64,000 bases of DNA from Methanosarcina sp. 2.H.T.1A.6. Lineage in GTDB: Archaea > Halobacteriota > Methanosarcinia > Methanosarcinales > Methanosarcinaceae. Positions 18,878 to 37,981 of this stretch are shown piece by piece; within the stretch, counting starts at the first letter, position 1; each line of letters opens with the position of its first letter. The stretch spans positions 124,001 to 188,000 of the forward strand of contig NZ_JJOY01000005.1 in the NCBI RefSeq assembly GCF_000979455.1. The letters run 5' to 3'. Below the pieces are notes generated by a model. It saw only the letters and a list, made by a program, of their open reading frames with translations. It did no database searches and had not been told where the DNA came from. Both the position numbers and the translations under genes were made by a program.

Positions 18878-19234
18878 TCAATAGTCACTGCACTCTGAAA
18901 CTGTGTATTCCGTACTTTCAAGAATAGGCGTTTCCGGAAGCTTCCTTTCTATTCTGCAGATATTGAAAACTGCATGGGGAATAAGGCATCCCCTGGTGCA
19001 GTCCAGGGCGCATTCCTTAGTGCATTCGAGGGAGCAATCCGTTTGTCTTTCCATCTCCATGGTGAGATTACTTTGATTATCGGGCAGTCCCTGAAGAGGG
19101 AATTCCAGGTAGGTGAGTTCTTTGAATTTTTCGCAGGGGGTATCGATCTTTATGATAATCCTGTCTCCTTTCACCCTTCCCATTATCGTATGGCTAAAAC
19201 CGCACATGCAGGAAGATACATTTATTTTTATCAT
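18878..19234 (-). CDS. small cysteine-rich protein linked to the corrinoid activase, 118 aa
   Basis: Starts at ATG 19234 (AGGGGC upstream) rather than the in-frame TTG six bases earlier. There are two Cys clusters: SSCMCGFSHTI near the N-terminus and a dense CSLECTKECALDCTRGC segment at about residues 67-83, with a later C near 92 and one at the end. The pattern suggests zinc or Fe-S binding. I recognise the architecture as a methanogen-specific protein of unknown function, not a named enzyme. It begins 43 bases after the stop of the RamA-like gene on the same strand, so the two are probably co-transcribed. A role in electron delivery to, or stability of, the activase would be an inference from position only. 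Confidence 0.7.
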   Translation of the reverse strand: MIKINVSSCMCGFSHTIMGRVKGDRIIIKIDTPCEKFKELTYLEFPLQGLPDNQSNLTMEMERQTDCSLECTKECALDCTRGCLIPHAVFNICRIERKLPETPILESTEYTVSECSDY

Positions 19235-19277
19235 TTTCAAAGCCCCTGCTATTTGATATGTTTTTAGAGTTTTCCTT

Positions 19278-20942
19278 TCAATATACTCCGCCGGTCATAC
19301 TGTCTCTCTGAAGTCCGTTTACACTCAGAGCTGCGATGTTCTTGAAGTCTATTGCTTTTATCGGGCAGGCCCGTACGCAGCGCCTGCAGCTTGTCCCAAG
19401 GCAGTCCTGAGTCCTGCAGCTTGCAAAGAAACTTCCGTTTTTCTCGATGGTTACAAGGGCATTTTCCGGGCACTCCTCGTTGCAGCGCTTGCAGTAGAGG
19501 CAGCCTTCCACAGGGACTTCGAGGGTGATCCCCACGTCTTCTACGATCTCTATCGGGACATCTCCTGTTTCCTCGATATCTTTAGCTGCCCTTTTTTCCA
19601 GCACTGCATTCTCTACGGGTTCCGGGAGAGGGGGATATTTGTACATTCTCATGAACTTTTTGTATAGTTTCATGCTCATGCCCTCGGTCCAGTAGGAAAG
19701 TTCGCAGGTGTAGATGTTCTTGAAGGTCTCGCTGGTCGCCATCATCAGGTGGTCGGCTTTTATAGTTCCGGCAAGGGCGATGACCTCTTTGAGCCTGGAC
19801 TCGTCAAGGAGGATTTCCCTGGCAAGGGCCATGGAAGTGTTTCCGAACTGTACGGCTTTTCTTGAGAAATCCGGGCAGGAGCCGATTTTCCTGGCTTTCT
19901 TGCAGTCCACATATGTTCCGGTGGCTCCGGACATGTAGACGTTTTCGAGCTCTTCGAAGGTTACTCCGGCTTCCAGAATAAGTGCAAGCTGGGCTGCGTG
20001 GATTGCCCCTATAGCTTTTCCGGCTTCGGAAATATCTTCGCTGGTGATTTCTATGTCTTTTCCAAGGATCAGCTTCCCGTTGGGCAGTTTAGGGGGCTGC
20101 TCCATAAGGCCCGTTTCCATGGCAACTGCGATAACTGCAATTACGCCTGTACCGGTAATACCTACAGCTTCGATTTCGCCCTTCTCAAGGATTTCCCCAG
20201 TAACCGGGTTTACAAGGTCTCCGGTTTTGCTTTCCATCTTTTCATTCAGGACCGTAAGACGCCAGTATTCCCCTTCGGAGTTCACGTCTGAAATCGCACC
20301 CGGGCTTGCAATCATCCCGCAGCTGATTCCCTGCCCTTCTATGGCAGGCCCTGCAGCCGCACTGCCGGTGATGATCCTATCCCCTACTTTTATTGCCATT
20401 TCTGCATTCGTGCCGTAGTCAGTGACAATGGAGACCTCTTTCTGGTTCAGGAAATCGGTTTCGATCATCATCGCCAGGGCATCGGCTCCTATCTCATGGG
20501 CGATAGCCGGAGGTACGGTTATTTCGCAATTCGGTAGGTCCAGAACACCTTTGAAAATTTCGGATGCCGGAAAGATCCTGGCACTCCTGTCCACATTCTC
20601 GACTCCAAGCCTTTTCTGCATGTTCTTTCCGGCAAAGGCGAGGTCTCTTATTTCAGAGTTCTGGAAAAGGGAAAGCTGGATCGGGTTTCCGCATACCACC
20701 AGTTTCTTAATGCTAGCTGGATCTGCATTCAGGGTCTCAATGATCTTCTTTACTGCGTCCAGTACGATATTGTTTGCAATATCTTCCCCTACTTCAAGGG
20801 CAAAGTCCAGGTGGTCGATCACATTGCCCCCCGGAAGGGGGTGCCTCATCGTCATTGCGGTTCTTACTACTTTTTTTGTTTCCAGGTCTATAAGCTGCGC
20901 TCTAAAGCCGCTGGTTCCCAGGTCAAGTGCGATCCCATACAT
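19278..20942 (-). CDS. RamA-like corrinoid protein reductive activase (ASKHA ATPase with two C-terminal 4Fe-4S motifs)
   Basis: 554 aa, close to the size of RamA. The ASKHA-fold domain (residues about 1-440) opens GIALDLGTSGFRAQLIDLE, and has VTDYGTNAEMAI near 195 and VYMSGATGTYVDC near 335. The C-terminus carries two Fe-S clusters: CLYCKRCNEECPENAL near 480 and CRTQDCLGTSCRRCVRACPI near 510. The family uses ATP to reduce inactive Co(II) corrinoid proteins back to Co(I) so that methyltransfer can continue. In this island the natural clients are the two corrinoid/methyltransferase fusions. The RBS (GTGGAGTAAG) lies in a duplicated 28-bp unit. Several RamA paralogs exist in Methanosarcina, so I do not assign the symbol. 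Confidence 0.9.
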   Translation of the reverse strand: MYGIALDLGTSGFRAQLIDLETKKVVRTAMTMRHPLPGGNVIDHLDFALEVGEDIANNIVLDAVKKIIETLNADPASIKKLVVCGNPIQLSLFQNSEIRDLAFAGKNMQKRLGVENVDRSARIFPASEIFKGVLDLPNCEITVPPAIAHEIGADALAMMIETDFLNQKEVSIVTDYGTNAEMAIKVGDRIITGSAAAGPAIEGQGISCGMIASPGAISDVNSEGEYWRLTVLNEKMESKTGDLVNPVTGEILEKGEIEAVGITGTGVIAVIAVAMETGLMEQPPKLPNGKLILGKDIEITSEDISEAGKAIGAIHAAQLALILEAGVTFEELENVYMSGATGTYVDCKKARKIGSCPDFSRKAVQFGNTSMALAREILLDESRLKEVIALAGTIKADHLMMATSETFKNIYTCELSYWTEGMSMKLYKKFMRMYKYPPLPEPVENAVLEKRAAKDIEETGDVPIEIVEDVGITLEVPVEGCLYCKRCNEECPENALVTIEKNGSFFASCRTQDCLGTSCRRCVRACPIKAIDFKNIAALSVNGLQRDSMTGGVY

Positions 20943-20944
20943 TT

Positions 20945-21000
20945 TTCTTACTCCACTTGCAGCGATTGAAAATTCTTACTCCACTTGCAGCGATTGAAAA
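20945..21000 (-). repeat. two 28-bp direct repeats spanning the ribosome binding site of the activase gene
   Basis: Unit TTCTTACTCCACTTGCAGCG plus ATTGAAAA occurs twice without gap, directly before the ATG at 20942. On the coding strand each unit carries GTGGAGTAAG, so the Shine-Dalgarno-like element is duplicated. Confidence 0.85.
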
Positions 21001-21341
21001 TTGAAAAAAAATAAATTGGAGCCTATCCGCTGTATCAGGCTGTTATGAACTGGATATAATCCAGGGAGTGAAATGGGCTGCGCAGCGTTTTCACTATTAT
21101 TTAATTTGTCTTTAACTAAGTTTTAGTCTTAAATGTATATAACATAATTCGGGGCTTGTCGTGAAGGGTCTTGATTTTAGTAGGGGTGCTGATTTTTGAG
21201 GGTGCATTGATTTTTCCGGGGGGTTGATTTCCGGAGGCCCTTCTTTTAAGGCATATACAACATATTTGTCAGTAAACTTCGTAAAAAAAGGATCGTAATA
21301 ATAAAAACTTCTGATTTTTGCAATGTATTTATTTTGTAATG
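21001..21341. other. upstream region of the activase and downstream region of the CoM methyltransferase
   Basis: No gene seen. Holds the perfect palindrome CTGGATATAATCCAG (21050-21064), which on the minus strand includes a TATA-like core about 110 bases before the activase start. G-rich and T-rich sequence at 21150-21240 has no recognisable structure. Confidence 0.5.
21050..21064 (-). promoter_or_regulatory. 15-bp palindrome / TATA element upstream of the activase
   Basis: CTGGATATAATCCAG is a perfect inverted repeat (CTGGAT, ATA, ATCCAG). It shares GGATATAATCCAGG with the element before fwdD at 12164-12177. Confidence 0.35.
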
Positions 21342-22361
21342 TTATCTATAATACTCGTTTCTCGCTTCAACAAGTGCCTTTATATTTTTAATCGGGGTCT
21401 TCGGGGCAATCCCGCAGCCAGGGGCAAGAATATCAATTCTTCCCTCCAGGCATCTTCTGGCTTCTTCTTTTATTTCTTCGCAGGTTCCGTTTAGCATTAC
21501 CCCTGAAGAGGAAAGGTTTCCTATCAGGCTTGTTTTTCCTCCAACAAGTTTTTTTGCAGCTCGCAGGTCGGTTACTTTTTCTTCTATACTGATCCCCTGA
21601 AAACCGCATCTTGAAAGAGTTTTAAGGATAGAGGTTGAGTTCCCGCAAACATGTATGAGTTTTATTCCTTTTCCTGACCTGCAGAACCTTTCATACTCCG
21701 GTTTTATAAGGGCATCCATATGTCTGGGGTCAAGCGTGTCAGGTCCTGCTATCCCATCAACTATGCAGACAGCATCTGCTCCGGCTTCGTAAAGCATTTC
21801 TGTGTATATGGAACAGACTGCTCTTGTGACTTCAAGGCATTCTTTTAATATTTCGGGCTTTTTAAGTGTCCAGGTAAGGAAATTGTACGTACCAACCAAT
21901 CTTGAAGCAAGGGATGCCGGACCTTCCATACCTGCTATAAGTGGAACTTCTTCTCCTACTTTTTTCCTCAGGATGGAAGTCACATCAAAAATCAGTGGTA
22001 TTCTTCCTCTTTCCGTAAAGTCGGGGTGAAGCTCCAGCTTTTCCGGCTCCTTTGCAAAAGGGTGAGACCCCGGAGAAGGCTGGATATCGTATCTTCCCTG
22101 ATTAATCCTGCATCCCATGGCTTCCGAGAGCACAGTGAGGCAGAAAGGGTAGCGCACGGCTTCAAGGCCTGCAAAAGTGTGGGCTGAAAGTGCCAGAGCT
22201 GCCATCTTCTCCGCATCAAAGTGAGCCTCAGGCCATGCAGCTCCACTCTCTTTCATAAGTTCTACGGTTCCGGTCTGGGTAACCGATAGAGCTGGCACTT
22301 TATCCACAGCTTTTCCTGTCAGGGTATTCAGAAAACGGTCTCTCAGGTCTGGATCTGCCAT
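21342..22361 (-). CDS. methylcobamide:CoM methyltransferase, MtaA/MtbA family
   Basis: 339 aa, the usual length. UroD-fold enzyme of the MtaA/MtbA/CmuA family that moves a methyl group from a methylated corrinoid protein to coenzyme M. The zinc site HxC...C is present: HVCGNS near residue 238 and LAPGCGI near 318. The N-terminal RDRFLNTLTGKAVDKVPA is typical. Start ATG with AGGT seven bases upstream. It lies in the methyl-transfer island between the activase and an Mts fusion protein. Because MtsD-type proteins already carry a methyltransferase domain that acts on CoM, this enzyme may serve other corrinoid proteins or assist the fusions. Which corrinoid it prefers cannot be read from sequence. 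Confidence 0.85.
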   Translation of the reverse strand: MADPDLRDRFLNTLTGKAVDKVPALSVTQTGTVELMKESGAAWPEAHFDAEKMAALALSAHTFAGLEAVRYPFCLTVLSEAMGCRINQGRYDIQPSPGSHPFAKEPEKLELHPDFTERGRIPLIFDVTSILRKKVGEEVPLIAGMEGPASLASRLVGTYNFLTWTLKKPEILKECLEVTRAVCSIYTEMLYEAGADAVCIVDGIAGPDTLDPRHMDALIKPEYERFCRSGKGIKLIHVCGNSTSILKTLSRCGFQGISIEEKVTDLRAAKKLVGGKTSLIGNLSSSGVMLNGTCEEIKEEARRCLEGRIDILAPGCGIAPKTPIKNIKALVEARNEYYR

Positions 22362-22550
22362 TTAAACCTGCCATCAAAAATCCTTTTGTTACTTAAGCCT
22401 CATAATTGGCTTCTTCTGGATATTTATTACAGGCTGGATCACTTTTATATTTTTCAGTTAAAATATCTGTGTACAAATTATATAAATCCATGCAAAAATG
22501 CTTTTTCTGAAGACAAATATGCGCCTTCAGCTCATTCTTTTGCTATGGCA

Positions 22551-22640
22551 ACAAAGCTTGTAAATATAAGATTCAGAGAGTCTCACAAAACAAAGCTTGT
22601 AAAAATAAGATTCAGAGAGTCTCACAAAACAAAGCTTGTA
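22551..22640 (+). repeat. 39-bp direct repeat, about 2.3 copies
   Basis: Units start at 22551, 22590 and 22629 (ACAAAGCTTGTAAATATAAG then ATTCAGAGAGTCTCACAAA). Being a multiple of three, the unit keeps an open frame, but no gene is supported. Confidence 0.85.
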
Positions 22641-22743
22641 GAAAAGAGATTTGTGGATTAAAAGAGATTCATGGATTAAAAGAGATTCATGGATTTATAC
22701 AGGGTTGAAGTGGATAGAATGAAACTCTGTCAGGAAGCAGAGC

Positions 22744-23455: not shown

Positions 23456-23483
23456 GAGGACGGACAAAAATGCCCGTCCCCTC
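23456..23483 (-). terminator. hairpin downstream of the first Mts fusion gene
   Basis: GGACGG/CCGTCC stem with a T-rich loop, about 50 bases beyond the stop (minus strand). Confidence 0.5.
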
Positions 23484-23532: not shown

Positions 23533-25428
23533 TTATCCCATGATCTTCTTGTAGAGTTCCGGACCGGTTTCTGCTACAGTGTAGGACTGGGCAGTTACTG
23601 TGTCACATGGACCTCTTGGTGGGACTTCACAACCGGTTGCAATCACGTACTTGGACTGCATTCCATTCTCCTTGAGAGTGTTCAGGACGCTCTTCTGGAG
23701 GTCAATTGTGTCGTTCCTGATCTTTGATATGTTCTCGGGGCTGTTGTCCATGAATGCGATAGGACTGACTTCCCCAGCGAACATGACATCTTTCCCGTAA
23801 TTCTCAATGAGGTACTTGTGGTCCTTGGAGCCCTTGCTTACCTGCTCGGGGTAGAAGGTGTAGCTGTAGTACTGGGTGTTCCACTTGCTCATAAGGTCCC
23901 AGTGAGGGGCATCTGCACAGTTGTGGACAACCATGGGCTTGTTGTACTCCTTGTAGAGCGGGGCGAAGACGTTCTGCATGACCTTTCCTTCGGTCTTCAT
24001 GTATTCGTCTGCTCCGAGGATGATGTTGTTAGTCCAGAGAGTTGCCAGACAGAGGTTGTCGGGCTGGGCTTCCTCGAACATCATCTTGGCCATTTCCTTA
24101 CAGTACTCGGTGGTCTGGTCAAGGGCTTTGAGGACAACGTCGGGGTTGGTCCTGAGGTCAGAGAGTACACGGGTTGCTCCCATGATCTGGGTCAGGGCTA
24201 CCATTGGGCCTTCGAAAAGAGCTGTGATAGGTGCATCAATTGCCTTTGCCTTCTCGGTTGCGAGTTTGTTACCCTGAATAAGGTTGTATGCACGGGTACC
24301 TTCCTTGATCTCGGGGATTTCCATGGTTTCGTAGTCTTCAAGGTGACCGATTGCTGCAGGGGTGTCTTCTTCAGGGACTCTGATGGTTGCACCGAAGTCA
24401 CTTGCGACAACACAGAGGTCGGTAAGGCCTACGAAGTTGTCAATGTTGAAGTACTTGGTACCTGCGACTGCACTGGCTGCATACATTTCTGCCTTGGTGG
24501 AGTAGTCTGCGTAGGTGCAGGGTACAAACTTCCTGGAGAGACCGCAGATGAGAGGTGCTACCGGGAGCCTGTCGACCTTCTTGTCCTGGAATGCGGAGAC
24601 GAACCTTTCCTTCTTGGTCATGGTCTCATTGAACTTGGGTACAACGGAGTCGTACTCTGCGAGGATCTTCTCTGCGGTGATGAGCCCAACGTCGATTTCT
24701 TCCTTGGTGCCCTTCTGTGCGAGGATTTCCTTGTACTTCATCTTGCTTGCTGAAACTGAGGCTTCGCTCCATGTATCGGCAGGAAGTGCGCTGAGGAGGG
24801 AGGCAAGTTTTTCGACTGCTCCGCTTGCGTCACCGGCTGTGCCATCTGCTCCGATGGATTCTGCGTATTCCCTGGAAATGGGTGCGCCGCCGACCATGAC
24901 TACGAGGGAGTCCCTGAGGCCTGCTTCCTGAAGCTGTTCGATAACAGTCTCCATGCCGCCCATGGTGGTGGTCATCAGGGTGCTCATGGAGATTGCAACT
25001 GCCTTATTTTCCTTTGCAGTTTCAGCGAATTTATCGAGTGGGACGTCGACACCGAGGTCAATTGCGTTGTAGCCTGCAGCGGTGATCATTGTCTTGACGA
25101 GGTTCTTACCGATGTCGTGCACGTCACCTTCAACAGTACCAACGACGACGTTCCTTGGAACAGCGGTTGCGTCAGTCTTTATGTGAGGGGTCAGGATCTC
25201 CATACCTGCATACATTGCATCTGCTGCGAGCAGAAGGCTGGGGACGAAGGCTTCTCCCTTCTCGTACATGTCACTGACTACGTTCATGCCCTTTGCGAGA
25301 CCATCAATGATCGCTTCATATGCGTCGACTCCTTCGTCAAGAGCTTTCTGTGCGAATTCTTCTGCAAGATCGTCGTCTCCTTCGACGACAGCATCCATTA
25401 AAGCGTTTAAAATTTCTTCTTTTGCCAT
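23533..25428 (-). CDS. corrinoid/methyltransferase fusion protein, MtsD/MtsF/MtsH family (first copy)
   Basis: 631 aa from ATG 25428, chosen because GGAGGT lies six bases before it; the longer frame adds 15 unlikely residues. The N-terminal half (about 1-215) is a corrinoid protein: a four-helix cap, then the cobalamin-binding GDVHDIGKNLV motif in which His is the lower cobalt ligand. The C-terminal half (about 265-631) is a UroD-fold methyltransferase with zinc ligands in VHNCADAPHWD and ATGCEVPPRGP. The family uses methylated sulfur compounds (dimethyl sulfide, methanethiol, methylmercaptopropionate) and transfers methyl to CoM. Which Mts isozyme this is cannot be decided here. A 240-base leader precedes it and a regulator gene lies upstream. 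Confidence 0.92.
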   Translation of the reverse strand: MAKEEILNALMDAVVEGDDDLAEEFAQKALDEGVDAYEAIIDGLAKGMNVVSDMYEKGEAFVPSLLLAADAMYAGMEILTPHIKTDATAVPRNVVVGTVEGDVHDIGKNLVKTMITAAGYNAIDLGVDVPLDKFAETAKENKAVAISMSTLMTTTMGGMETVIEQLQEAGLRDSLVVMVGGAPISREYAESIGADGTAGDASGAVEKLASLLSALPADTWSEASVSASKMKYKEILAQKGTKEEIDVGLITAEKILAEYDSVVPKFNETMTKKERFVSAFQDKKVDRLPVAPLICGLSRKFVPCTYADYSTKAEMYAASAVAGTKYFNIDNFVGLTDLCVVASDFGATIRVPEEDTPAAIGHLEDYETMEIPEIKEGTRAYNLIQGNKLATEKAKAIDAPITALFEGPMVALTQIMGATRVLSDLRTNPDVVLKALDQTTEYCKEMAKMMFEEAQPDNLCLATLWTNNIILGADEYMKTEGKVMQNVFAPLYKEYNKPMVVHNCADAPHWDLMSKWNTQYYSYTFYPEQVSKGSKDHKYLIENYGKDVMFAGEVSPIAFMDNSPENISKIRNDTIDLQKSVLNTLKENGMQSKYVIATGCEVPPRGPCDTVTAQSYTVAETGPELYKKIMG

Positions 25429-25690
25429 ATTAAACCTCCATTTTTCAGGATTAGATATGCCAGATCCTGGCATCCTGTTTTTACTGCTTCGGGCAGGGTT
25501 CTCTAAAGGATCCCCGTCCTTAATTTTTCCATAGAGCTACTGATACCTATCCAGTACCTGATGCCTATCCAGTAGCTATTTCTCCAACCTAACGATCTTT
25601 CGTCAGCATGCCTGAAAATAGCCGCTCTTCCATCTCCGGATGGTCATCTTTCTGCTATGGCTGTTTACATTCTGATAGTATCATTCAATA

Positions 25691-26309: not shown

Positions 26310-27083
26310 TTAATTTACTTTTTCCGAAAGTCCTATGTAGTAATCAGCAAGTTCGTTTCCCCATTCAATGGCACTGTTGTTGAAACTCATGATATTTCTG
26401 TGATCAAACTCTCCTTCCTTTCCGAAGAGTTTCAGCATCATAAATTCATTTGAAATTATGAAGGAAGAAGGCTTTATTTTTCCCCTGTAAATATAGAGTG
26501 AAACATTGTTTTCAAGCAGCAAGTTGTATGTGTCCTTAAAATCATTTTTCAGTCTTATGTATACCTTTTCATCCAGAATCAGGTCCACTTTTGCTCCGTT
26601 CTTTGCACAGGTTGCCTGAATTGAAGGGCATTCGGGGCAAAAGAATGAGTAAAAGCTCCTTAACCTCTCGGACCTGCCTAACATTTCTTTCAGGTCTTTT
26701 GGGAATTCAAAGAGGTGATCCAGGTCAGGCTCATCCAGTTTGCATTTTCCAAGCATATGTATTTTCTTCATCAGATGCTCAGGGATTGGCCTTCTATCGT
26801 GCTTTGACCAGTAATTGTTATTTCCTTCAAAAACCTGGAGGAGACCCGTTAAGGGCAGCATTTTTTCAACAATTATTTTTCCTATATCTGAGAGTTCGTA
26901 GGTGTCCCTTTTCTGGATAATGACATCCATGTCTTTCAACTTTTTTAGCTGTGGCATTATAGAAAATACGTCTCCATGAATTCCGTCTTTGATTTCATCG
27001 GCGCTTTTTGGTCCATTTGCCAATTGGATCAGAATTTCCTTCCTTTTTTCAGAAAAAAAAATTAAATCTATAAGTCCTGTCAT
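26310..27083 (-). CDS. methanogenesis regulatory protein, winged-helix plus FilR1/DUF1724-type domain (Msr family)
   Basis: 257 aa from ATG 27083; the longer frame begins at a GTG with no RBS and adds 11 residues that the sister protein lacks. Residues 1-75 form an ArsR-like winged helix (MTGLIDLIFFSEKRKEILIQ, then LKKLKDMDVI and YELSDIGKIIVEKM). Residues about 130-250 fit the DUF1724/FilR1 middle-domain class of methanogen regulators. Msr proteins of this type activate or repress individual mta and mts methyltransferase genes in Methanosarcina, usually the neighbouring one. It lies upstream of the first Mts gene on the same strand, so that gene is the likely target. Confidence 0.85.
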   Translation of the reverse strand: MTGLIDLIFFSEKRKEILIQLANGPKSADEIKDGIHGDVFSIMPQLKKLKDMDVIIQKRDTYELSDIGKIIVEKMLPLTGLLQVFEGNNNYWSKHDRRPIPEHLMKKIHMLGKCKLDEPDLDHLFEFPKDLKEMLGRSERLRSFYSFFCPECPSIQATCAKNGAKVDLILDEKVYIRLKNDFKDTYNLLLENNVSLYIYRGKIKPSSFIISNEFMMLKLFGKEGEFDHRNIMSFNNSAIEWGNELADYYIGLSEKVN

Positions 27084-27817
27084 AATATCAACTTCTAGCC
27101 TCGTACCCCGGGACACTATAAAAAGTAATTCCTCTCAGCATTATAGTCCTTTTTATACCGCAGCGATTAAGAACCGCCATTGACCGTTCAGTTCCTGAAT
27201 CAGTCGAATTATCTTTTAATCTCCGGATGTGGCAGATTTCAACTGCAACAACAATAGCAATCATCAGGGCAACGGTATTTTTCCTCAACTTTGGGACTAA
27301 CTCTATATATCATAATTTGAGGTTTCACACGAAGGTCTTCGGTTTTACAGGAGGATTTTTATTTTATAGGGGGCCTGTTTTTTCCAGGGGTATGTTTTTT
27401 CAGATCACTTCTATTTCTCAGGGATCTATTCTTCTTATCCTATCTCAGGAGTTTTGCCTTCGATAATAAAGGAAGATTTAAAAGAAGATTACAAAGGAAG
27501 ATCACTGAGCCTTCTTCCCTGAGGGGTTTTCTGGATATATACTTTTCTTTCCTGGAGGCACCTTTAAATGGCAAACCCGTACCCTCCAGGAAAAGTATTA
27601 CATGTTCTTTTACCGGCTCGTCGATGAGAATCTTGTCCCTTATCGTCCTTGCCAGTTTCGCCATTCCGGCCTGGCTTTCTATTTAGGGCTTGTTGGTGTT
27701 TTTAGCTCACTTGCCATGTCTTTTCCCCGTTTGCTGCAATCCCTGCCGTTTATTTCCCGGGACACTACTCCGATCTTCGCATTCCAGCGCCAAAACTCGC
27801 TCTTCCAAAATACGTTC
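27084..27817. other. region between the ASKHA protein gene and the regulator
   Basis: Holds the regulator promoter and one possible small gene (27440-27664, minus). Plus-strand frames here have poor composition and no RBS. Confidence 0.45.
27440..27664 (-). CDS. possible small basic protein, 74 aa
   Basis: Starts MAKLARTIRDKILIDEPVKE, then HVILFLEGTGLPFKG, and ends in a Leu-rich tail (LCNLLLNLPLLSKAKLLR). The first 50 residues have a natural composition; the upstream GGCCGG is a weak RBS. It lies downstream of the ASKHA protein on the same strand. No family recognised; may be chance. Confidence 0.3.
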   Translation of the reverse strand: MAKLARTIRDKILIDEPVKEHVILFLEGTGLPFKGASRKEKYISRKPLREEGSVIFLCNLLLNLPLLSKAKLLR

Positions 27818-29752
27818 TTATGCCAGTTTTCCGGTTGTTCCTACACCGAGTCCGACCAGGCGGGTTTCCAGTGGGGATTTTCCAATGCTTCCCACATCAT
27901 TCTTTTTCAGGTCGAATTCCACGTTGCCCATATCGAGGCCGTAACTGTCCATATATTCCGAGACCAGCCTGTGGCTGAGCTTAAGCCCGTAATCCAGGGC
28001 TTCTCCGTAGTCCTCAAAAACTTCTTTTCCAAGCTCAGAGAATACCGAATATGCTGCATTTCCTGCGGCAGTCGGGCGGATAAGGACCTCTGTCCTGTGG
28101 ATTACTTTTCCTACAAGAGCGCCAACGGCATTTCCTACCTCATGGAATGCAGGAATCCGGATCTCCGCATCCACTGCTTCATTCAGCTCTTTAAGGTAGG
28201 CTCTCACCGGAGCTCCTACAAGTACCACCGGGACCTTTATATGGAATTTCAGGAAAGCCTCCTTTACTATCATTTTTTCAACGTCTTCTTTCTTCAGATC
28301 GTCTGCAAAGAAGGAGACCAGTTCAAGGGTGAGTTTTCTTACGACTTCAGCTTTAACCTGGGCTGAAAACTCTTCCGCTCCTTTTTTGAGATTCTTTCCA
28401 AGGACTTTAGCGCCTATGAAGGAAGCTCTTCCGTCCCATCTTACATATTCCCCGAGCACATGCAGGGCATCGGTTGGGGTAAACCCTATCTGGCTTACGT
28501 GCCTTTTTCGGATCAGGTTCTTCAAAGTTCCTGCGAACATAAGCGGATGTTTTCCAATCCTTTCCGAAATCTCGAATACCGAAAGAGGCTCTGTCCACAT
28601 GTGTTCGATTATTGCAATCTCATCTTCTTCAAGCTCCTCGCTAAGAAGCTCAGGGAAATTCACCCCGTTCCTTATGAAAAATGAGGTCGGCTGTATAATC
28701 TCATCCATAATGCTTTCTTTTGGAGTGTCGGTTTTTTCGAGTTTCTCCAGAATCTCCGGAAACTCTGAAGCTGCCAGGCAGAGAGGGATCACCCTTGTGG
28801 GCCCCAGGTAGGTTTTTCTCTTAATCCAGACAAGGCTGTCTCCTCCAAGGGCCGAGGTGTCCATCCTGATCGCTTTTACCATTGTTTTCCAGCCCCCGAC
28901 TTTTGCTCCCGTGTCGCTGATCTCGGGAATGCCTCCGGAAATCATGGCAATATCGGTACTTGTGCCTCCCACGTCCACTGTCACACAGGTGTCCAGGCCT
29001 GTCAGGTGTGCGGCTCCTACAAGGCTTGCAGCGGGTCCGGAAAAGATTGATTCTACAGGCTTTTGCAGGGCTTCTTCGATGCGGACCAGGGACCCGTCGC
29101 ATTTCATCATCATCAGGGTTGCCTTTATCTCTTTTTCTTCCATTACAGCCTGGACGGATTTGATAAACTGCTTGCTTACCGGGATCAGTTCGGCGTTCAG
29201 GAGAGCTGTCACAGCCCTTTCGTAAGCCCCAAGGCTCATGGAAAGTTCGTGCCCGCAAACAACAGGCATGTCAGTTATTTCCTGAATTAATTCCTTGACC
29301 CTGAGTTCATGTTCCGGGTTCCTGACTCCGAAATAACCGGAAACTGCAAAAGCAGCTACTTTGTTCTTTATCTGCCTTACAAATTCTTTTACGGTTTCCA
29401 GGTCTTCAAGAGGAGCAATTTCGTTTCCATCGGAATCGTGGCCTCCTCCTATTGATATTACATAATTGCTGGCAAGTTTTTTCGGGATAGTGTGCCCTAT
29501 AAGGATCAGCCCTGCAGGGTAGCCTTTACCCTCAAGAGTGGTATTGGTAGCAAGAGTTGTAGAAACAGAAACGAATTTTATCCTTTTCAGGTCATCCGGG
29601 TTCAGCCCTTCAATTGAATTCTTTATTCCCCTTATAAGGTCAGGATAAGTTGTAAGCGCTTTATTCGACTCGATCACGGTTCCGTTTGACATATCCATAA
29701 TAGCGGCATCGGTATATGTTCCACCAGTATCAATGCCCAGTCCCAGATACAT
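27818..29752 (-). CDS. hydantoinase/oxoprolinase-family ASKHA ATPase in the methyltransferase island
   Basis: 644 aa from ATG 29752, which has GGAGGA directly upstream (the longer frame adds six residues). It starts MYLGLGIDTGGTYTDAAIMD, the phosphate-1 motif of the ASKHA fold; a second ATP motif TVDVGGTSTDIAM lies near 260. A winged-helix-like insertion sits near 400-450 (IIEHMWTEPLSVFEISERIG). These are features of HyuA-like proteins; hydantoin or oxoproline turnover makes little sense here and no HyuB partner is present. Position between a regulator and an Mts fusion gene suggests ATP-dependent service to corrinoid methyltransferases, parallel to RamA, but it has no Fe-S motifs. That role is inference. 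Confidence 0.8.
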   Translation of the reverse strand: MYLGLGIDTGGTYTDAAIMDMSNGTVIESNKALTTYPDLIRGIKNSIEGLNPDDLKRIKFVSVSTTLATNTTLEGKGYPAGLILIGHTIPKKLASNYVISIGGGHDSDGNEIAPLEDLETVKEFVRQIKNKVAAFAVSGYFGVRNPEHELRVKELIQEITDMPVVCGHELSMSLGAYERAVTALLNAELIPVSKQFIKSVQAVMEEKEIKATLMMMKCDGSLVRIEEALQKPVESIFSGPAASLVGAAHLTGLDTCVTVDVGGTSTDIAMISGGIPEISDTGAKVGGWKTMVKAIRMDTSALGGDSLVWIKRKTYLGPTRVIPLCLAASEFPEILEKLEKTDTPKESIMDEIIQPTSFFIRNGVNFPELLSEELEEDEIAIIEHMWTEPLSVFEISERIGKHPLMFAGTLKNLIRKRHVSQIGFTPTDALHVLGEYVRWDGRASFIGAKVLGKNLKKGAEEFSAQVKAEVVRKLTLELVSFFADDLKKEDVEKMIVKEAFLKFHIKVPVVLVGAPVRAYLKELNEAVDAEIRIPAFHEVGNAVGALVGKVIHRTEVLIRPTAAGNAAYSVFSELGKEVFEDYGEALDYGLKLSHRLVSEYMDSYGLDMGNVEFDLKKNDVGSIGKSPLETRLVGLGVGTTGKLA

Positions 29753-30112
29753 TACATTCCTCCTCTGCAACTTCTATGGCTGGTCTTCTCTCATCTGCTT
29801 CAGTCCCTGTCTCTAACATTTCTAGCCAACCTTACCTCTGCTTTCTCACAATTCTGAGAGCCCGACATAATTTCAAAGGCAAAAACCTTTTTCAAAAAAG
29901 ATCTTACAGTTTTTACTTTGCGGCTTTTATAATGGAAAAGGATGGAGAAGACCCAATCGTCTTAACTCCGCCCTTCTGGAGGTTAGAATATGGTTTTTAC
30001 TTGCTTGTGGATGTTTTTCTGTTTTTTCAGGATTTTACAGGTTCTATGGAGATTTCTCTTATTTTGGGCTCTGAATTCTATTATTAAACATTCTGTCCAG
30101 ATTTTAATCGAA
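29753..30112. other. promoter region of the ASKHA protein gene
   Basis: TTATAAAAGC on the minus strand near 29924-29933 is a good TATA candidate, giving a leader of roughly 150 nt. No gene seen. Confidence 0.45.
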
Positions 30113-30146: not shown

Positions 30147-32051
30147 TTACCCCATTATCTGTTTCTGAAGTTCCGGGCCCAGCTCCTTTACGGTGTTAAC
30201 CATTGCCTGCACGGTTGTCAGGGGGCCGCCTGGTGGGATTTCACAGCCAGAAGACATAACATACTTGGACTGCAAACCGTTCTCCTTCAGCACAGGGAGT
30301 GCGTTCTGGAGCAGGACCTTTGTGTCGTCCTTTACCTTCTGCACACCGGCTGCCGATCCGTCCATGAATTCAACAGGGTTAACTTCTCCCATCATACAGC
30401 AGGTGTCTCCATATTTGGGGATGAGGTCTGCATAGTTCTGGGATCCCTTTTCCCTGGATTTCTCATAGTAGGCATAGCTGTAGAGGGCGGTGCCGAATTT
30501 CTTTATCTGGGTCTCAAAGTGCACGGCGTCAGCACAGTTGTGGATAAGATACGGCTGGTTATACTGCTTAAAGAGCGGTATGTGCTGGTCGTAGACGAAC
30601 TTTCCGTCGAATTTCCAGTAGTCCTGTTCACTCATAATCACATTGTTTGACCAGAGGTTGTCTATACAGAGGGCATCACAGGCTCCTTCACTGAAGAAGA
30701 GCTCGGAGAGCTGGCAGATGTAGTCGGTACACTTCTGGACAGCTTCAAGGACAACATCCGGCTGGGTCTTCATATCCATGAGCACGCGGTCTGCACCCAT
30801 CAGCTGGGTAAGGGTAAGCAATGGGCCTTCGTGGAATCCGATGAAGGGGGTGTTGAGTTCCTTGTTGAGTTTTTCCTTTGCCATCTTTGAGGCCATGACC
30901 AGTTCGTAGCCGCGGGTTCCTTCCTTAAGTTCGGGGACCTCAATCTTCTCATAGTCTTTAATGTGCCCTTCGGAGGACGGGGTGTCGTCTTCGGGGTATT
31001 TGATCTTACATCCGAAGTCAGCGGATGTAGCTGAAAGGTCGGCAAGGCCCACGAACATGTCCATGTCCAGGTACTTTGAACCAAGGAAGGCGCTCTGGGT
31101 GAAAGCTTCTGCGTTTGTGGCATAGTCCCTGTAGTTGACTCCGGCAAACTTCCTGAGCACACCACAGGCAAGCGGGTAGACCGGCAGGCGGTCGACCTTC
31201 TTGTCGGACATGGCGGATACGGTCCTGTCGATGTGGGTCATTTCCTCCTTGTTCTTTACACCGATGCTTTCGAATTCTTCCTTGATCTTGTTAGCCGTCT
31301 CAAGCCCGATGTCGACCTTTTCGGAGACTACCTTCTTTGCGAGGATTTCCCTGTATTTGATCTTTCCAAGGTTGACCTTCACTTCGCTCCACCTTGCGTC
31401 TTTGGGCTCAAGTTCTTTTATGGCTTCGGATGCCCAGGCGCTTGCGTGCATTGCATCAGGGTGGGTTGAGTCAGCACCGATTCCTGTGGCATACTCTTCG
31501 GAAACAGGGGCACCTCCTACCATTACAACCATGGAGTCGCGTATGCCTTCTTCCTGGAGGATTTCAATGACCTTTTCCATATTGGTCATGGTTGTGGTCA
31601 TCAGGGCACTCATTGAGATCAGGTCGACTTTGTTCTCTTTTGCGGTTTCGATAAACTTCTCGATCGGGACATCTGCTCCCAGGTCGATCATTTTGAAACC
31701 ACCGGCACTGAGCATCGTCTTGACGAGGTTCTTTCCGATGTCGTGCACGTCTCCCTCAATGGTTCCAATAACACCCACTGCCTGTAGGCCTGATTCTGCT
31801 GCCTTCATGTAGGGGGTAAGGATGTCCATACCTGCATACATTGCGCCAGAGGCAAGGAGCAGGTTGGGTACGAAGGCTTCTCCCTTTTCGTACTGGTCGC
31901 TGACAATTGCCATTCCTCTTGCCAGCCCATTGACGATCGCGTTGTAGGGATCAACGCCGTCAGCCAGTGATTTCTGTGCAAGTTCTTCTGCAAGGTCGTC
32001 GTCTCCGTCGACGACAGCTTCCGCTAATTGGTTTAAGATATCTGCTGCCAT
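30147..32051 (-). CDS. corrinoid/methyltransferase fusion protein, MtsD/MtsF/MtsH family (second copy)
   Basis: 634 aa with the same design as the protein at 23533: corrinoid domain (about 1-215) with GDVHDIGKNLVKTML, linker, and UroD-fold methyltransferase (about 270-634) with LIHNCADAVHF and SSGCEIPPGGP zinc motifs. The two copies are clearly diverged (the methyltransferase halves differ more than the cobalamin-binding core), so they are distinct isozymes, probably for different methylated sulfur substrates. GGAGG lies before the ATG. A TATA candidate at 32171-32180 predicts a leader of about 100 nt, shorter than that of the other copy. The DNA codon pattern suggests high expression. Confidence 0.92.
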   Translation of the reverse strand: MAADILNQLAEAVVDGDDDLAEELAQKSLADGVDPYNAIVNGLARGMAIVSDQYEKGEAFVPNLLLASGAMYAGMDILTPYMKAAESGLQAVGVIGTIEGDVHDIGKNLVKTMLSAGGFKMIDLGADVPIEKFIETAKENKVDLISMSALMTTTMTNMEKVIEILQEEGIRDSMVVMVGGAPVSEEYATGIGADSTHPDAMHASAWASEAIKELEPKDARWSEVKVNLGKIKYREILAKKVVSEKVDIGLETANKIKEEFESIGVKNKEEMTHIDRTVSAMSDKKVDRLPVYPLACGVLRKFAGVNYRDYATNAEAFTQSAFLGSKYLDMDMFVGLADLSATSADFGCKIKYPEDDTPSSEGHIKDYEKIEVPELKEGTRGYELVMASKMAKEKLNKELNTPFIGFHEGPLLTLTQLMGADRVLMDMKTQPDVVLEAVQKCTDYICQLSELFFSEGACDALCIDNLWSNNVIMSEQDYWKFDGKFVYDQHIPLFKQYNQPYLIHNCADAVHFETQIKKFGTALYSYAYYEKSREKGSQNYADLIPKYGDTCCMMGEVNPVEFMDGSAAGVQKVKDDTKVLLQNALPVLKENGLQSKYVMSSGCEIPPGGPLTTVQAMVNTVKELGPELQKQIMG

Positions 32052-32598: not shown

Positions 32599-33081
32599 TT
32601 GAATAAATGCATGAAAGTGTCCTTATTTCTGATCTTCATGTGCTGGGTTTTAAGTGCTGTTAGCGGCTGTGTGGTTCCCGATGAAGGCGAACATTCCTCT
32701 GTATCTGTTGAAGATATTAAAGTGATTTCTTTATCTGAAGAGTATTCGACACCTGTCAGCGGAGAGACAGGAAATGTCCTGAATGTGACCGCCTACATTG
32801 TAAATGCAGACAAAGCGGATAGTTCGGCTCTTCTGATTCGGTTTAAGTTAGAGGAGACTGACTCCGATGAGCCATCCTCCTTCCGCGAGCTGGCAACAAA
32901 AAATGTAGAACTTGACTACATAAAAGGCAGGTCTATGCTTCAACAGTCAGTACAGATAGCTGTTCCTGGTCCGGGAACATATGATGTTGAAGTCTCCGTT
33001 TTCGAAGACGGAAAAGACCCTTCGACTGCTCTTGGTATGGTGTTTTTCGTCGGAGAAGAAGGGGAAGTTGGAACGTTCTGA
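32599..33081 (+). CDS. putative lipoprotein of unknown function, 160 aa
   Basis: Signal sequence with lipobox (FLIFMCWVLSAVSGC) predicts a membrane-anchored surface protein. The mature part looks like one beta-sandwich domain (residues about 40-150, LNVTAYIVNADKADSSALLI, GPGTYDVEVSVFEDG), CARDB- or Ig-like in character. The start is TTG at 32599 with AAGGAGGAG five bases upstream; an ATG at 32611 is the alternative and would leave the signal peptide intact. It is followed after 14 bases by a membrane protein, so the two form a small operon inside the methyltransferase island on the opposite strand. Confidence 0.7.
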   Translation: MNKCMKVSLFLIFMCWVLSAVSGCVVPDEGEHSSVSVEDIKVISLSEEYSTPVSGETGNVLNVTAYIVNADKADSSALLIRFKLEETDSDEPSSFRELATKNVELDYIKGRSMLQQSVQIAVPGPGTYDVEVSVFEDGKDPSTALGMVFFVGEEGEVGTF

Positions 33082-33095
33082 ACTGGAGTGAGTCA

Positions 33096-33992
33096 ATGAT
33101 TAAAAATCGGAAAACACTACTTCTTATCTCTGTTTTGCTGATCCCATTCTTATTGTTTAGTGGCTTTATTTTTATGCTAACCTATTACGACCAGGCTTTT
33201 TACTATTCAAATGGTGTTAATCTCGGCTCCCCCAAATATTATACTCATGCGGTTTCCAGTGCAAAGGGAGCCGGATACGATTACAGTGTGAATAACGGGC
33301 CCGGGGGAGTGAATCCCGGACTTATTGAAGGGCTTGATCCGAGGCTCGGTTCGGATTTTCGGGTAAACTCGATGGATCTTTACTATTCAAACTCTTCCTG
33401 GTTTTCAATATCTTTTTTGAATAATGGAGATTCAACCTTTTCCTTCTGGAATGAAGACCCCCTTGCAAAGTACAGACCGGAAGATCTCCCCAAGAGAGAA
33501 TGGGTGGTCAATAAATTCAAAATCATATATGGTATGAATGAAAAGGAAATTGAAGCGTATCTCCCGGCAGAGAACTGGGGGGTAAATGACATCTTTTTCG
33601 AGCAGGTAACCATAACAAGACATCCTGATATCGCAGCAATCCGCAGACATCTCTTAGAGGGATCTACCAGTTCGACTTTTGATGCGGAAAATTCGGCAGG
33701 GGAAGGTGGAAGTACAGAAACATTCTACAATGGCAGCGAAAAAATAGGGTCTATAAGCTATTTTGTTCAGGCTGCAGAAATAAGTTTTAAGGAAGGCTCA
33801 AGCACTTACACGGTCCATATTGACAGGCTGGGGGGTGTGCGTCTCTATATCTCTCTCAGATCAGATAGTTCAGGAAATAAAATTCCTGAAAAAGAGTACA
33901 GAGCCGTATTTAAAAGGATCTTCATAGACCTGGGGCTCCCTCCTGAAAAAGTCGATGAGGTTGAGTTCGAGTATGGCGAAGGTTTCTGGTGA
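33096..33992 (+). CDS. membrane-anchored exported protein of unknown function, 298 aa
   Basis: One N-terminal hydrophobic helix (residues 8-30, LLLISVLLIPFLLFSGFIF) followed by a large soluble outer domain rich in Tyr, Ser and Asn. No lipobox and no C-terminal anchor, so it is an uncleaved signal-anchor protein or a secreted one. I do not recognise the family. It follows the lipoprotein gene by 14 bases and is probably translated from the same mRNA. Position next to methyl-sulfide genes might hint at a surface function in that metabolism, but nothing in the sequence shows it. Confidence 0.7.
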   Translation: MIKNRKTLLLISVLLIPFLLFSGFIFMLTYYDQAFYYSNGVNLGSPKYYTHAVSSAKGAGYDYSVNNGPGGVNPGLIEGLDPRLGSDFRVNSMDLYYSNSSWFSISFLNNGDSTFSFWNEDPLAKYRPEDLPKREWVVNKFKIIYGMNEKEIEAYLPAENWGVNDIFFEQVTITRHPDIAAIRRHLLEGSTSSTFDAENSAGEGGSTETFYNGSEKIGSISYFVQAAEISFKEGSSTYTVHIDRLGGVRLYISLRSDSSGNKIPEKEYRAVFKRIFIDLGLPPEKVDEVEFEYGEGFW

Positions 33993-34215: not shown

Positions 34216-35016
34216 TCAGGCTTTCTCAAATTCGATTTCTTTTATCTCCTTTGAATTTTTCATGTAATGCAAAAAGAGGGCTTCTCCCCATTTAAGGGCT
34301 GTTTTTTCCATACTCATCATTGCATGGTTGTGGTATATCCCGTTTCTATAGAAGAGGGAAAGAGCCAGAAAATGGTCTGTTACCACACTTGAGGCTACTT
34401 TTACAGGGCAGTCGCAGACGAAGATTTTTGCATTGTCTCTGTCCAGATATTCCCTGAGGGATGTGCTGTATTCCCTTCTCAGCCTTTCGAATACCGGCTT
34501 TGTGATTATCAGAGATACGTCAGTTCCTTTTTTCACCAGTTCAACATAGGTTGACTGGTAAGCAGGATTAAAATAAGAGGAAACTTCCATAACATGGGTT
34601 GACCTGGTTAGCTTTTCTTCGATTTTCTGGGGGATCTCATACATCCTGTCAAGGTCGGGTTCGATGAATTCGCAGTGCCCGAGGTCATCTATTCGGTCCA
34701 GAAGGGGGACAGGGATTGCGCTTATATTGTGGTTCTCCCAGTAATCCATATGCTCTGAAAACACGCCAAGGGTGTTCAGAAGAGGCCTCATTTTCTTAAC
34801 TACCACCTTTCCGATATCAGAAAGTTTGTAAAGGTCGTCCTCATGAATGATAAGCCCCTGGCTGATGAGGATCTTGATCTGGGTCATGATCGCACTTGAA
34901 GTCACATTGAGTATGTTTTTTATATCTTCAATGTTTCGGGGTTCCTCCATCAGCAGCAAAAGAAGGTCTTTCCTTTTGTCCGAAAGGAAAAGAGTGCCCA
35001 ATAGTTCCAGTTTCAT
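34216..35016 (-). CDS. methanogenesis regulatory protein (Msr/FilR1 family) paired with the sensor kinase
   Basis: 266 aa from ATG 35016 with GGAG eight bases upstream; the longer frame from 35046 has no RBS. N-terminal winged helix (LGTLFLSDKRKDLLLLLMEE, ILNVTSSAIMTQIKILISQG, LYKLSDIGKVVVKKM) and C-terminal FilR1/DUF1724-type domain (about 135-255). It is a paralog of the regulator at 26310 with the same plan. It starts 49 bases after the stop of the PAS/GAF kinase on the same strand, so kinase and regulator are likely made together; in M. acetivorans, kinases of this type are encoded near Msr regulators and mts genes. Targets are probably one or both Mts fusion genes. Confidence 0.87.
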   Translation of the reverse strand: MKLELLGTLFLSDKRKDLLLLLMEEPRNIEDIKNILNVTSSAIMTQIKILISQGLIIHEDDLYKLSDIGKVVVKKMRPLLNTLGVFSEHMDYWENHNISAIPVPLLDRIDDLGHCEFIEPDLDRMYEIPQKIEEKLTRSTHVMEVSSYFNPAYQSTYVELVKKGTDVSLIITKPVFERLRREYSTSLREYLDRDNAKIFVCDCPVKVASSVVTDHFLALSLFYRNGIYHNHAMMSMEKTALKWGEALFLHYMKNSKEIKEIEFEKA

Positions 35017-35065
35017 CGTAAATCTCCAGCCACTTAATTTGAACATTTTTCAACTTCAACTATAT

Positions 35066-37981
35066 TTAATTCACATTTCCGGTTTCAAAGTTCTTTTTCG
35101 GAAGCCTTACATGCATCGTGGTTCCCGAACCTTCCTCGCTTTCCACCCAGATTTCCCCTTCATGGGCATTGACAATGTTTTTACAGATATAGAACCCTGA
35201 TTCAAGTCCCTGGTACCTGCGGGTCATGGAATCGTCAACCTGGTATATCCTGTGGAAAAGGTGGGGGATCAGCCTTTTATGGATGCCTGTTCCGCTGTCT
35301 TTTACGGTTATGTGGATACTATCTTCTTCCTCTACGGCTTTTACTTCCAGCGTCCCACCATGAGGTGTGAACTTGATGGCATTGCCCATGAGGGTGGTGA
35401 ACAGGTCTGTCAGTTTCTGCTTATCGCCACGAATAGGTGGCAGGTATGGGGGAAGTTCCTTTTCGACCTTCAGTTCTTTTTCATCTATCAGGAGTACCAG
35501 GTTAAGGTAAACATCCGAGAGTATCTTCTTTATCTCTACTTCGGCAAAAGAGTACTCGATCTTTCCTGCCTGTTCAAGGCTCAGGTAGAGCAGGGAATCC
35601 ACCATATGTTTCAAACGCTCCGAACTGTTGATTACGGCGTCTATAGCTTTCTGCTGCTGGTCTTCGATAGTCTCCATTGTCTCGAAATCCATAAGGTCGC
35701 TGTAATCTACCTTTATCTGGGGAAGGCTTTCAGCCATAAATTCCGCTTTTATTCTGTTAAGGGACCTGAGTTCATCATTGGCTTTTGACAGGTCTTCAGA
35801 ATAGGATTTAAGGGCGTCCTCAAGCTGTTTTCTCTGGATAAGCTGCCACATGCCCTGCATGAGAAGGGTCAACTGGCGTAAGTCAGATTCATCATATGAA
35901 TCATCCTTATTTCCAACTCCTGCAACTGCAACTATCCTGTCCCCGTCAAAAACCGGTACGTTCATATGACGGGTAAGGTGAACATGGTCTTTCGGATATC
36001 CCTTTTTCAGGGAACTCGGAGCTGTATAATCATTGGTTATAATGGGCTTGCGCTGCCGGATTGCCTCTCCCCAGAGCCCGGTTGTTTTTACCGGGTAGAT
36101 AAAGCGCTTGTCTTCGATTGCACATTCTTCCATTGCGCTCTTTGACCAGGAATGCATGATCAGGGAGGTCTCATAGGCGTCCATAAAAGCGAGGTACCCG
36201 AGTTTGCTGCCTGTAAGCCTGACTGCCTCTTCGCGGGCAAAGTCTGTTATTTCTTTTAAGGAAGCTCCTGTCATCCGATTAAGTTTTACAAGGGCTTCAA
36301 GCCGGGATTCGTTAAGTTTCTGTGCAGCTTCGGCTTTTTTGCGCTCGGTAATGTCCCTGGCAACCGAGAGGATCGTTTTCTTTCCGTCGTAATCAATAAT
36401 TCTGGCGCTGACTTCAAGAGGGACAACTGTGCCGTCCTTGCAGATAGCTCCCGAGTTATATACCCTGGACCCCTCGCTCCGGATCTTTTTTAGATTTTCA
36501 CGGACCGAGTCCCAGTACTCGGCAGGAATGATTTCTTCGGCTTCCATTTTCAGGATCTCTTCCTTCTCGTATCCGAGCCGTTTTACCACTGCCTGGTTTA
36601 CGTCCATGTAATTTTTTCCTTCGGGCTCGCGGATGTACAGCTGGTCATTGATGTTGTTGAAGACGGTCCTGAATTTGTGTTCGGATTCTTTCAGGGTTTC
36701 TTCTGCCAGCTTATGCTCAACTGCAATGGCTGCCAGCTGGGCGTTTGTTTTCATAAAGTCCAGGTCTTCTTTTTCTGGCCTGTGCACTTCACTGTAGTAC
36801 ATGGAAATAACACCAAGGACTTCTCCGGAGGATGAGACTAAAGGCTCTGACCAGCAGGCTTTCAATCCAGCCTCAACTGCCAGATCCCTGTATTTAGTCC
36901 AGTAGGGGTGTTCCATTACATTATCTACGGTTACCCTTTTTCTCAAGAAGGCTGCGGTTCCGAAGGAAGCCGCTCCAAAACCAATCTCTATTCCGTCAGT
37001 CCTCTGCCTGTAAAACTCAGGAAGTCCCGGAGCAACGCAGTAAAAGAGATGCTTTTTCTCCCGGTCAAGTAGCATTACCGAGCATATAGAGCCTGGTCTG
37101 ATCTTTTCCATATTTTGAATAAGAAGGAGAAGCACTTCTTCGAGTGGAGCTCCTGAAGCCAGTTGCCCGAGCACCAGGTTCTGTCCTTTCACTATCTCTT
37201 CAGCAAGCTTGCGCTCGGTAATGTCCAGAACGATTCCCTGGTAATGGGTAATTTCTCCTTTTTCGTTCCTTTTGATGAGGGTCCTGTCATCTATGTATCG
37301 TACTTTTCCCGATTTTGTCAGGACCCGGTGCTCCTAGGTGCAGTCCTTATATCCTTCTCTGGAAAACTTTGCCACTTCGGCGCGGATTCTTTCACGGTCT
37401 TCAGGGTGTATCAGGTCTTCAAACTTTATTTTTCCAGAGGTGAAATCTTCAGTGGTGTATTCCAGCTTTGTGATATTTTCAGAGACAAATTCAACGGGCC
37501 AGCCCTCTTCTGGCTTACACAGAAATACAAACACGGGGCTGCTCTTGATGATGTTTTTTAATTCATTCTTCTTTTTCAGCGCCTTTTGCATCGACTCTTC
37601 GGCCTTTTTGCGCTGGGTAGCATCGCAGAGAGTGCCCTGGTAATGGCTAACTTTTCCGTCTTCGTCTCTCCGGATCAGGACCTTGACCTCAGCCCAGCGC
37701 GTTTCTCCCGAAGCTGTCACTATTCTGTATTCCTGTGTCAGCTCAGTGCATCCCTTTTCCGAGCATCCGGCAATCTCAGATTTTACCCTTTCAATATCCT
37801 CAGGATGGACAATGTCAAGATACCGGATATTTCCGGAGATGAAGTTTTCAACTGCGTAGCCGAACTGCCAGACGTTTTCCGTAATAAGTTCCACAGGCCA
37901 GTTCCCTGTTGATTTGCACAAAAAAATAACTATAGGGCTGCTATTTATAAGCGATTCCAGATTTATATCGAATTGTTTCAT
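35066..37981 (-). CDS. PAS-PAS-GAF-PAS-GAF sensor kinase with one in-frame UAG (candidate pyrrolysine codon)
   Basis: Reading through TAG at 37334-37336 gives 971 residues in one unbroken frame. Domains: PAS at about 5-125 and 125-250, GAF at 275-430, PAS at 430-550, GAF at 555-720, a HisKA-like helix pair at 735-805, and HATPase at 820-965. UAG is codon 216. The first PAS has ELTQEYRIVT, the second KDCT-UAG-EHRVLT; the Gln codon is CAG, so UAG replaces exactly that Gln. Without readthrough, a 215-residue fragment and a 708-residue protein from GTG 37192 would result. The expected phospho-accepting His is absent (FMAESLPQIKVDYSDL), and the G2 box is degenerate (QGLESGFYI). Cys620 in AMEECAIE sits in the second GAF, the domain where MsmS-type methyl-sulfide sensors of M. 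acetivorans hold heme through Cys. The alternative is a recent nonsense mutation. Confidence 0.8.

Follow-up and report, generated by a model that had tools for sequence, protein, structure and literature searches.

The question raised by this locus is whether a sensor kinase gene with a TAG codon inside its frame is one gene or two. The gene opens a methyl-sulfur island in the window analysed here, which is the whole stretch of 64,000 nucleotides from Methanosarcina sp. 2.H.T.1A.6, and it is the ortholog of rdmS of Methanosarcina acetivorans. A PAS open reading frame (ORF) and a GAF/PAS/GAF/HATPase ORF share a single frame, and the TAG is its sole interruption. The first-pass annotation had listed separate 'PAS' and 'PAS/GAF kinase' ORFs; both are present, and they are read here as one gene split by the TAG. 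That annotation had missed the conserved amber codon, which is the most unusual feature of the island. The end that had been given for the island, position 37981, is the ATG of this read-through gene. The sequence comparisons indicate that the rdmS ortholog likely encodes one protein, in which UAG is decoded as pyrrolysine within the second PAS domain (PAS2) and the full kinase is made. Taken by part, read-through of the TAG appears very likely, and pyrrolysine is with high probability the residue inserted there.

Conservation of the TAG and selection across it

The family was searched in 111 genomes with the read-through kinase protein as query, and 68 of the 111 matched at E 1e-100. The close orthologs, own gene included, number 16 (81-100% identity, nearly full length), of which 12 belong to the own genus and four to a second genus. 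All 16 carry TAG at the kinase codon. Their final stops are nine TAA and seven TGA with no TAG (that of G093 counted at the TGA of codon 965), so the internal TAG is unlike a terminator. The pooled ratio of nonsynonymous to synonymous differences (pN/pS), calculated over all 120 pairs of the 16 orthologs, was 0.205 upstream of the TAG, 0.120 for the next 46 codons and 0.126 for the remainder; read in its two shifted frames, the 46-codon segment gave 1.05 and 1.82. The median ratio of the corresponding rates (dN/dS) was 0.107, 0.058 and 0.059 for the same three segments, with 92, 83 and 120 of the 120 pairs usable and the rest undefined. The codons after the TAG evolve as protein. Frame-specific selection was used because a scan for stops with open flanks does not discriminate by itself: in the window it returned 180 stops, 86 with homologous flanks, of which 50 lie antisense to a listed gene, 27 fall between or beyond the listed genes and eight are within a listed gene but in another frame. 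The one remaining stop in a gene's own frame is the kinase TAG.

The TAG was also found beyond the close orthologs. Six more kinases carry it at the homologous PAS column, in G034 (which we take to be Methanohalophilus mahii) and G035 of one genus and in G016, G019, G020 and G023 of another, and in all six it is in frame with the kinase half. The msr and mtsD genes follow the TAG kinase in five of the six stretches, and neither was seen in the G023 stretch. The total for this column is 22 genomes in four genera, the column having been read in the compared loci and not in many of the lower-scoring kinase matches. In a 66-row PAS tree three rows of MsmS, a paralog of RdmS, fall inside the TAG group. 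In a 77-row tree with 22 TAG rows the TAG rows are clustered, and a single TAG clade is not rejected by the approximately unbiased test (p-AU 0.354). Either one or two events of TAG origin would fit these trees.

The domain order of the kinase is PAS1-PAS2(TAG)-GAF-PAS-GAF-HATPase. An AlphaFold2 model of PAS1-PAS2, built from 11 sequences (mean predicted local distance difference test, pLDDT, 79.7; predicted template modelling score, pTM, 0.45), places the TAG residue in the predicted strand 214-222 of PAS2, after which two more strands complete the PAS sheet. The best Foldseek matches of this model are tandem-PAS sensors, e.g. LOV-HK and FixL. With regard to a possible thiol redox response, nine Cys columns are invariant in the 16 orthologs, and one of them sits two residues before the TAG. 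This Cys is replaced by Tyr in the other two TAG genera and is therefore not essential to the arrangement.

Pyrrolysine decoding machinery

The PylS protein scored above its cut-off in 99 of the 111 family genomes, the source genome included, and in 21 of the 22 TAG genomes, the exception being G100. ARAGORN identified tRNA-Pyl with the anticodon CUA in the source genome and in G082. The source genome has four MTTB matches, two with a single TAG, one with a TAG and a TAA, and one with none.

Alternative explanations

The alternative that fares best also accepts the insertion of pyrrolysine. A sense codon would have become TAG in a pyrrolysine-decoding ancestor, and nothing would select the TAG; this stands somewhat short of an even chance. 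Many residues occur at the column in relatives (Q, K, R, H, I, S, L, A, V). Among the loci compared, genus g11 has CAG in 13 of 14 and CGG in one, genus g12 has CAG or CAT, and others have ATC, ATA, TCT, CTG, TTG etc. The MsmS-type paralogs of G075 (presumably M. acetivorans C2A), G006 and G009 have AAG (Lys), and the place of PAS1 that matches the TAG has a Gln codon in the 16 orthologs (CAG in 15, CAA in one); a single step thus separates TAG from a Gln codon, and likewise from a Lys codon. A neutral origin has also been argued in print for the amber codon of Thg1. The lack of any reversion in 22 genomes points the other way. With rates from 202 fourfold sites and a 16-species tree of length 4.72, the probability that a T free to vary shows no T-to-C change is 0.034, and that it shows no change at all 0.0036. 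This speaks modestly against neutral drift, because the rate at the TAG site was assumed equal to that of fourfold sites, and such drift is weakly disfavoured.

TAGs at other sites of sister kinases bear on the same question. The second Msr-linked kinase of G018, G020 and G021 has a TAG at a shared site in the last GAF, where RdmS has Trp. The G037 kinase has it at a different GAF site, and in the second G034 kinase the TAG lies within the kinase half, at a position that is Gln in RdmS. Four of these five kinases (L150 of G037, L151 of G021, L152 of G018, L153 of G020 and L149 of G034) adjoin an Msr gene, and all traced internal stops in the sister kinases are TAG, one per gene. A family search with the G020 kinase gave 17 matches in 14 of the 111 genomes; six of the 17 have a TAG inside, and two of these six are the G034 and G035 kinases with the PAS TAG. 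One TGA was met, in G021. The other-site TAGs support read-through.

A true stop, with two starts giving a PAS protein from the N-terminal part and the kinase on its own, is improbable. An in-frame ATG or GTG does lie 11 to 48 codons past the TAG in 14 of the 16 orthologs, but G007 and G009 have no in-frame ATG, GTG or TTG until 75 codons past it, inside GAF1 and too late for an intact GAF1 domain. At a true stop, drift among TAG, TAA and TGA would be expected, as the gene end varies between TAA and TGA, and the 46 codons past the TAG are in fact selected as protein. The modelled PAS sheet would be cut midway, and termination at UAG would yield a PAS and half a PAS with no kinase. Reading of the TAG by a near-cognate tRNA inserting e.g. 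Gln or Lys is the least credible explanation and has very little probability, since the genome holds a dedicated tRNA-Pyl (CUA) and TAG-bearing MTTB genes, even if Gln occurs most often in the relatives compared and Lys is found in the MsmS paralogs.

Some points weigh against pyrrolysine in RdmS or against its use there. The sister-kinase TAGs suggest that TAGs arise and are seemingly easily tolerated in Msr-linked kinases, which somewhat favours drift. No conserved RNA element was found in the 100 nt after the TAG (alifold z -1.05, 16 sequences). G100, one of the 16, is without PylS above the cut-off, its genome being 60% complete. Certain Methanosarcina UAGs do terminate (PMC2933860). A term search found no mention of pyrrolysine in the available text of the RdmS papers PMC11784639 and PMC6944256, and PMC11267899 explains the response to pyrrolysine loss by build-up of methyl-coenzyme M (methyl-CoM).

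Proposed role of pyrrolysine in RdmS

According to the proposed mechanism, the kinase mRNA carries an in-frame UAG at which PylS and tRNA-Pyl(CUA) would insert pyrrolysine in PAS2. How much full-length RdmS is made would then depend on pyrrolysine supply, and so would the control that the neighbouring Msr protein passes on to mtsD. A selected role for pyrrolysine in the kinase is put forward tentatively, as possible and short of probable, and the more specific proposal of a working sensor or switch is unlikely. In the sensor version the electrophilic ring, near the invariant Cys in the same PAS strand, would sense an amine or thiol; in the switch version the UAG would let kinase output track pyrrolysine supply. 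If either were true, methyl-sulfide metabolism would be tied to the methylamine/pyrrolysine state and pyrrolysine would have a role outside catalysis. To our knowledge, pyrrolysine is known to matter solely in methylamine methyltransferases. If the switch version were true, the other-site TAGs in sister Msr-linked kinases would be repeated inventions of a supply switch. The codon is conserved in a kinase that is also present in the genetically tractable M. acetivorans, which makes a regulatory use of pyrrolysine directly testable.

The RdmS reading also touches published expression data, which count in its favour. The mtpCAP genes rise on deletion of the pyrrolysine tRNA (PMC11619418), and raised expression of mtpCAP and mtsD has been likened to increased methylsulfide production without pyrrolysine (PMC11267899). 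With pyrrolysine in RdmS, the methyl-sulfide response seen in M. acetivorans deficient in pyrrolysine would have a second explanation.

Organisation of the island

The source genome comprises 4.07 Mb in 54 contigs. The features of the island are summarized in Table 1. The ORF, domain and equivalog scans recovered all the genes named by the first-pass annotation, at their places and on the minus strand. Their order is kinase, msr, two plus-strand ORFs, mtsD-type fusion, hyuA-like gene, second msr, second mts, mtaA, ramA and the DUF6951 gene, with a gap of 19 bp between the kinase and the first msr. The regulator adjoining the RdmS gene in M. acetivorans is presumably MsrF (MA0862). The Rfam scan of the 64-kb window gave no match.

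Table 1. Features of the methyl-sulfur island and of the interrupted kinase gene, in window coordinates
Feature	Position	Strand	Basis or remark
Cys-rich DUF6951 protein	18878-19240	minus	domain match; 37 bp downstream of ramA
RamA-type corrinoid reductive activase, C-terminal 4Fe-4S region	19278-20942	minus	TIGR04270, 757 bits (cut-off 500)
MtaA-type methylcobamide:CoM methyltransferase	21342-22361	minus	MtaA equivalog, 493 bits (cut-off 400)
Second Mts fusion (corrinoid/URO-D), MtsF-like	23533-25473	minus	domains, tree
Second Msr-type regulator	26310-27116	minus	FilR1_middle
HyuA-like ASKHA protein, beside mtsD in family core	27818-29770	minus	domains, locus comparison
MtsD-type fused corrinoid/methyltransferase	30147-32051	minus	domains, tree, 90% to M. 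acetivorans gene
Msr-type regulator (HTH_5 + FilR1_middle), MsrF position	34216-35046	minus	91% to same-place M. acetivorans gene
C-terminal kinase ORF if without read-through	35066-37192	minus	GTG start inside PAS2-GAF linker
rdmS ortholog, read-through gene, ~971 residues	35066-37981	minus	one frame across TAG
In-frame TAG, candidate pyrrolysine codon in PAS2 beta-strand	37336-37334	minus	codon 216 from ATG 37981 (217 in analysis numbering)
PAS ORF as called separately	37334-37984	minus	ORF list

Judged by gene content and order, the island is the conserved mtsD (methyl-sulfide) locus of Methanosarcinaceae, known already. Here it is larger by one msr/mts pair, and mtaA and ramA are present too. 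Identity to M. acetivorans is 91% for the kinase and for the first msr, 90% for the first fusion and 89% for hyuA, with the order kept, and the M. acetivorans mtaA gene, 83% identical to the window MtaA, lies ~4 kb past hyuA. No ortholog-like match to the second msr/mts pair or the ramA/DUF6951 pair was found in the two M. acetivorans stretches compared. In that species mtsD is MA0859 (PMC11267899) and RdmS is MA0863 (PMC11784639). Among 17 related loci, 12 hold all of kinase, msr, mtsD and hyuA, and several of the five that do not are short contigs; RamA is present in nine of the 17, short contigs included. Completeness of the gene set is therefore a family trait, and the earlier description of the island as unusually complete is not upheld, its four-gene core being ordinary in the family.

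The two plus-strand ORFs between msr and mtsD (32599-33081 and 33096-33992), judged by eye, probably encode exported small proteins; they are 79% and 62% identical to M. acetivorans counterparts, with the order kept. A large ORF adjoining the island (13760-18781, plus strand) probably encodes a surface protein with many PKD-like repeats, again by eye.

The island had been said to hold two different Mts isozymes, each adjoining an Msr-type gene, and this was borne out. The second msr has FilR1_middle as its sole Pfam match. The source genome has 22 genes with FilR1_middle (Msr-type), from 23 matches of which two lie within one ORF. In a tree of 35 Mts fusions, the first fusion, with an N-terminal corrinoid and a C-terminal URO-D domain, groups in the MtsD clade, which also has the 1.02-Mb fusion of M. 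acetivorans. The second belongs to a seven-row clade (supports 92/88) together with those of G082, G096, G095, G007, G086 and, deepest, G006. This clade stands beside a 14-row clade (81/74) that includes the 5.41-Mb gene of M. acetivorans, which we take to be MtsF, as well as a copy from contig C44 of the own genome. The clade supports are slightly under the star threshold of the tree. The second fusion is 78% identical to the MtsF/CmtA-type fusion of M. acetivorans, which has three long Mts matches (1.02, 5.41 and 5.61 Mb) and a partial fourth at 5.08 Mb (38%). Because the seven-row clade lacks any M. acetivorans member, the second isozyme appears, on this tree, to be an MtsF-like paralog with no close counterpart in that species. 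At L157 (G006:C1:685500-690500) there is a partial sequence weakly related to the Mts fusions (35-38%), its match containing stops, and similar partial matches occur in G075, G084, G007 and G095.

Each gene of the second msr/mts pair is similar to its counterpart in the pair on C44 of the same genome (Msr 70%, fusions 79%), so the two genes were probably transferred or duplicated as a unit. Such likeness, at the sequence level, fits one regulator per isozyme. According to work cited in PMC10762971, mtsD is required by M. acetivorans for dimethyl sulfide, and neither mtsF nor mtsH is critical; the same paper also cites an earlier report with the opposite weighting of mtsD versus mtsF/mtsH.

The methyltransferase that had been called MtaA/MtbA-type passes the MtaA (methanol) equivalog cut-off and falls below that of MtbA, which leaves the first half of the name. 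Two activase-like ATPases had also been proposed. RamA holds its place, passing TIGR04270 with a ferredoxin-like C-terminus. The ramA and DUF6951 neighbours also occur in several relatives (L075, L076, L078, L080, L082, L083). The DUF6951 protein may be a partner of corrinoid activation, as a guess. For the HyuA-like protein the name of dedicated corrinoid activase is likewise a guess, because the domain scan found no iron-sulfur domain in it and three of its seven copies in the source genome lie within 10 kb of one of 17 corrinoid-domain matches. These seven are of similar build; three further PF01968 genes differ. An MtsD-like gene is near the hyuA-like gene in 14 of the 17 related loci, and HyuA-like relatives are present in 103 of the 111 family genomes.

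Comparison with known systems

The mtsD, mtsF and mtsH loci of M. acetivorans share with the window the fused corrinoid/methyltransferase, and the adjacent Msr gene at the mtsD and 5.61 Mb places. They differ in that the window has an extra MtsF-like isozyme inside the mtsD island.

The nearest known relative of the kinase is RdmS (MA0863), which has the same locus beside mtsD and Msr, the same TAG and 89% identity over residues 2-972; the window kinase reaches up to 93% with other orthologs. Both are PAS/GAF kinases. The H-box is absent in RdmS (PMC11784639), and the domain scan gave HATPase_c and no HisKA match in the window protein. In locus and domain build the window protein fits the RdmS/MA_type 2 kinases. 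RdmS binds ATP, hydrolyses it and has no autokinase activity (PMC11784639). Judged from these alignments, M. acetivorans RdmS is very probably a pyrrolysine protein. If it was cloned from a start past the TAG, one and a half PAS domains would be missing in the published biochemistry. Its paralog MsmS is unlike it in having Lys at the TAG column.

Cluster 16 of Theil Have et al. (2013) is a UAG frame comprising an M. acetivorans sensory transduction histidine kinase and a hypothetical protein; M. mahii contributes a pseudogene and M. barkeri a shadow frame, and selection was called probable (PMC3639795). It is very probably the RdmS gene, unnamed there. That cluster covers three genomes, with no gene names and no link to RdmS or methyl sulfide in the available text (PMC3639795). 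As a pyrrolysine protein, RdmS was hinted at by this screen and goes unmentioned in the available text of PMC11784639 and PMC6944256. Chaudhuri and Yeates (2005) gave 97 M. acetivorans candidates (PMC1242214), among which the RdmS gene may be, and the pyrrolysine clusters of a 2007 stop-codon screen are three methylamine enzymes and a TetR regulator (PMC1914089).

The methylamine enzymes MtmB, MtbB and MttB resemble the kinase in an in-frame TAG kept across species and decoded by PylS and tRNA-Pyl. Pyrrolysine is catalytic in them (PMC8211752), whereas in the window kinase it would stand in a signalling PAS domain. Besides these enzymes, reviews name transposases and Thg1 (PMC8211752, PMC2933860). 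Thg1 of M. acetivorans likewise has an in-frame TAG outside the methylamine enzymes, but its amber codon is found in M. acetivorans only and is non-essential (PMC2933860), whereas the kinase TAG spans four genera.

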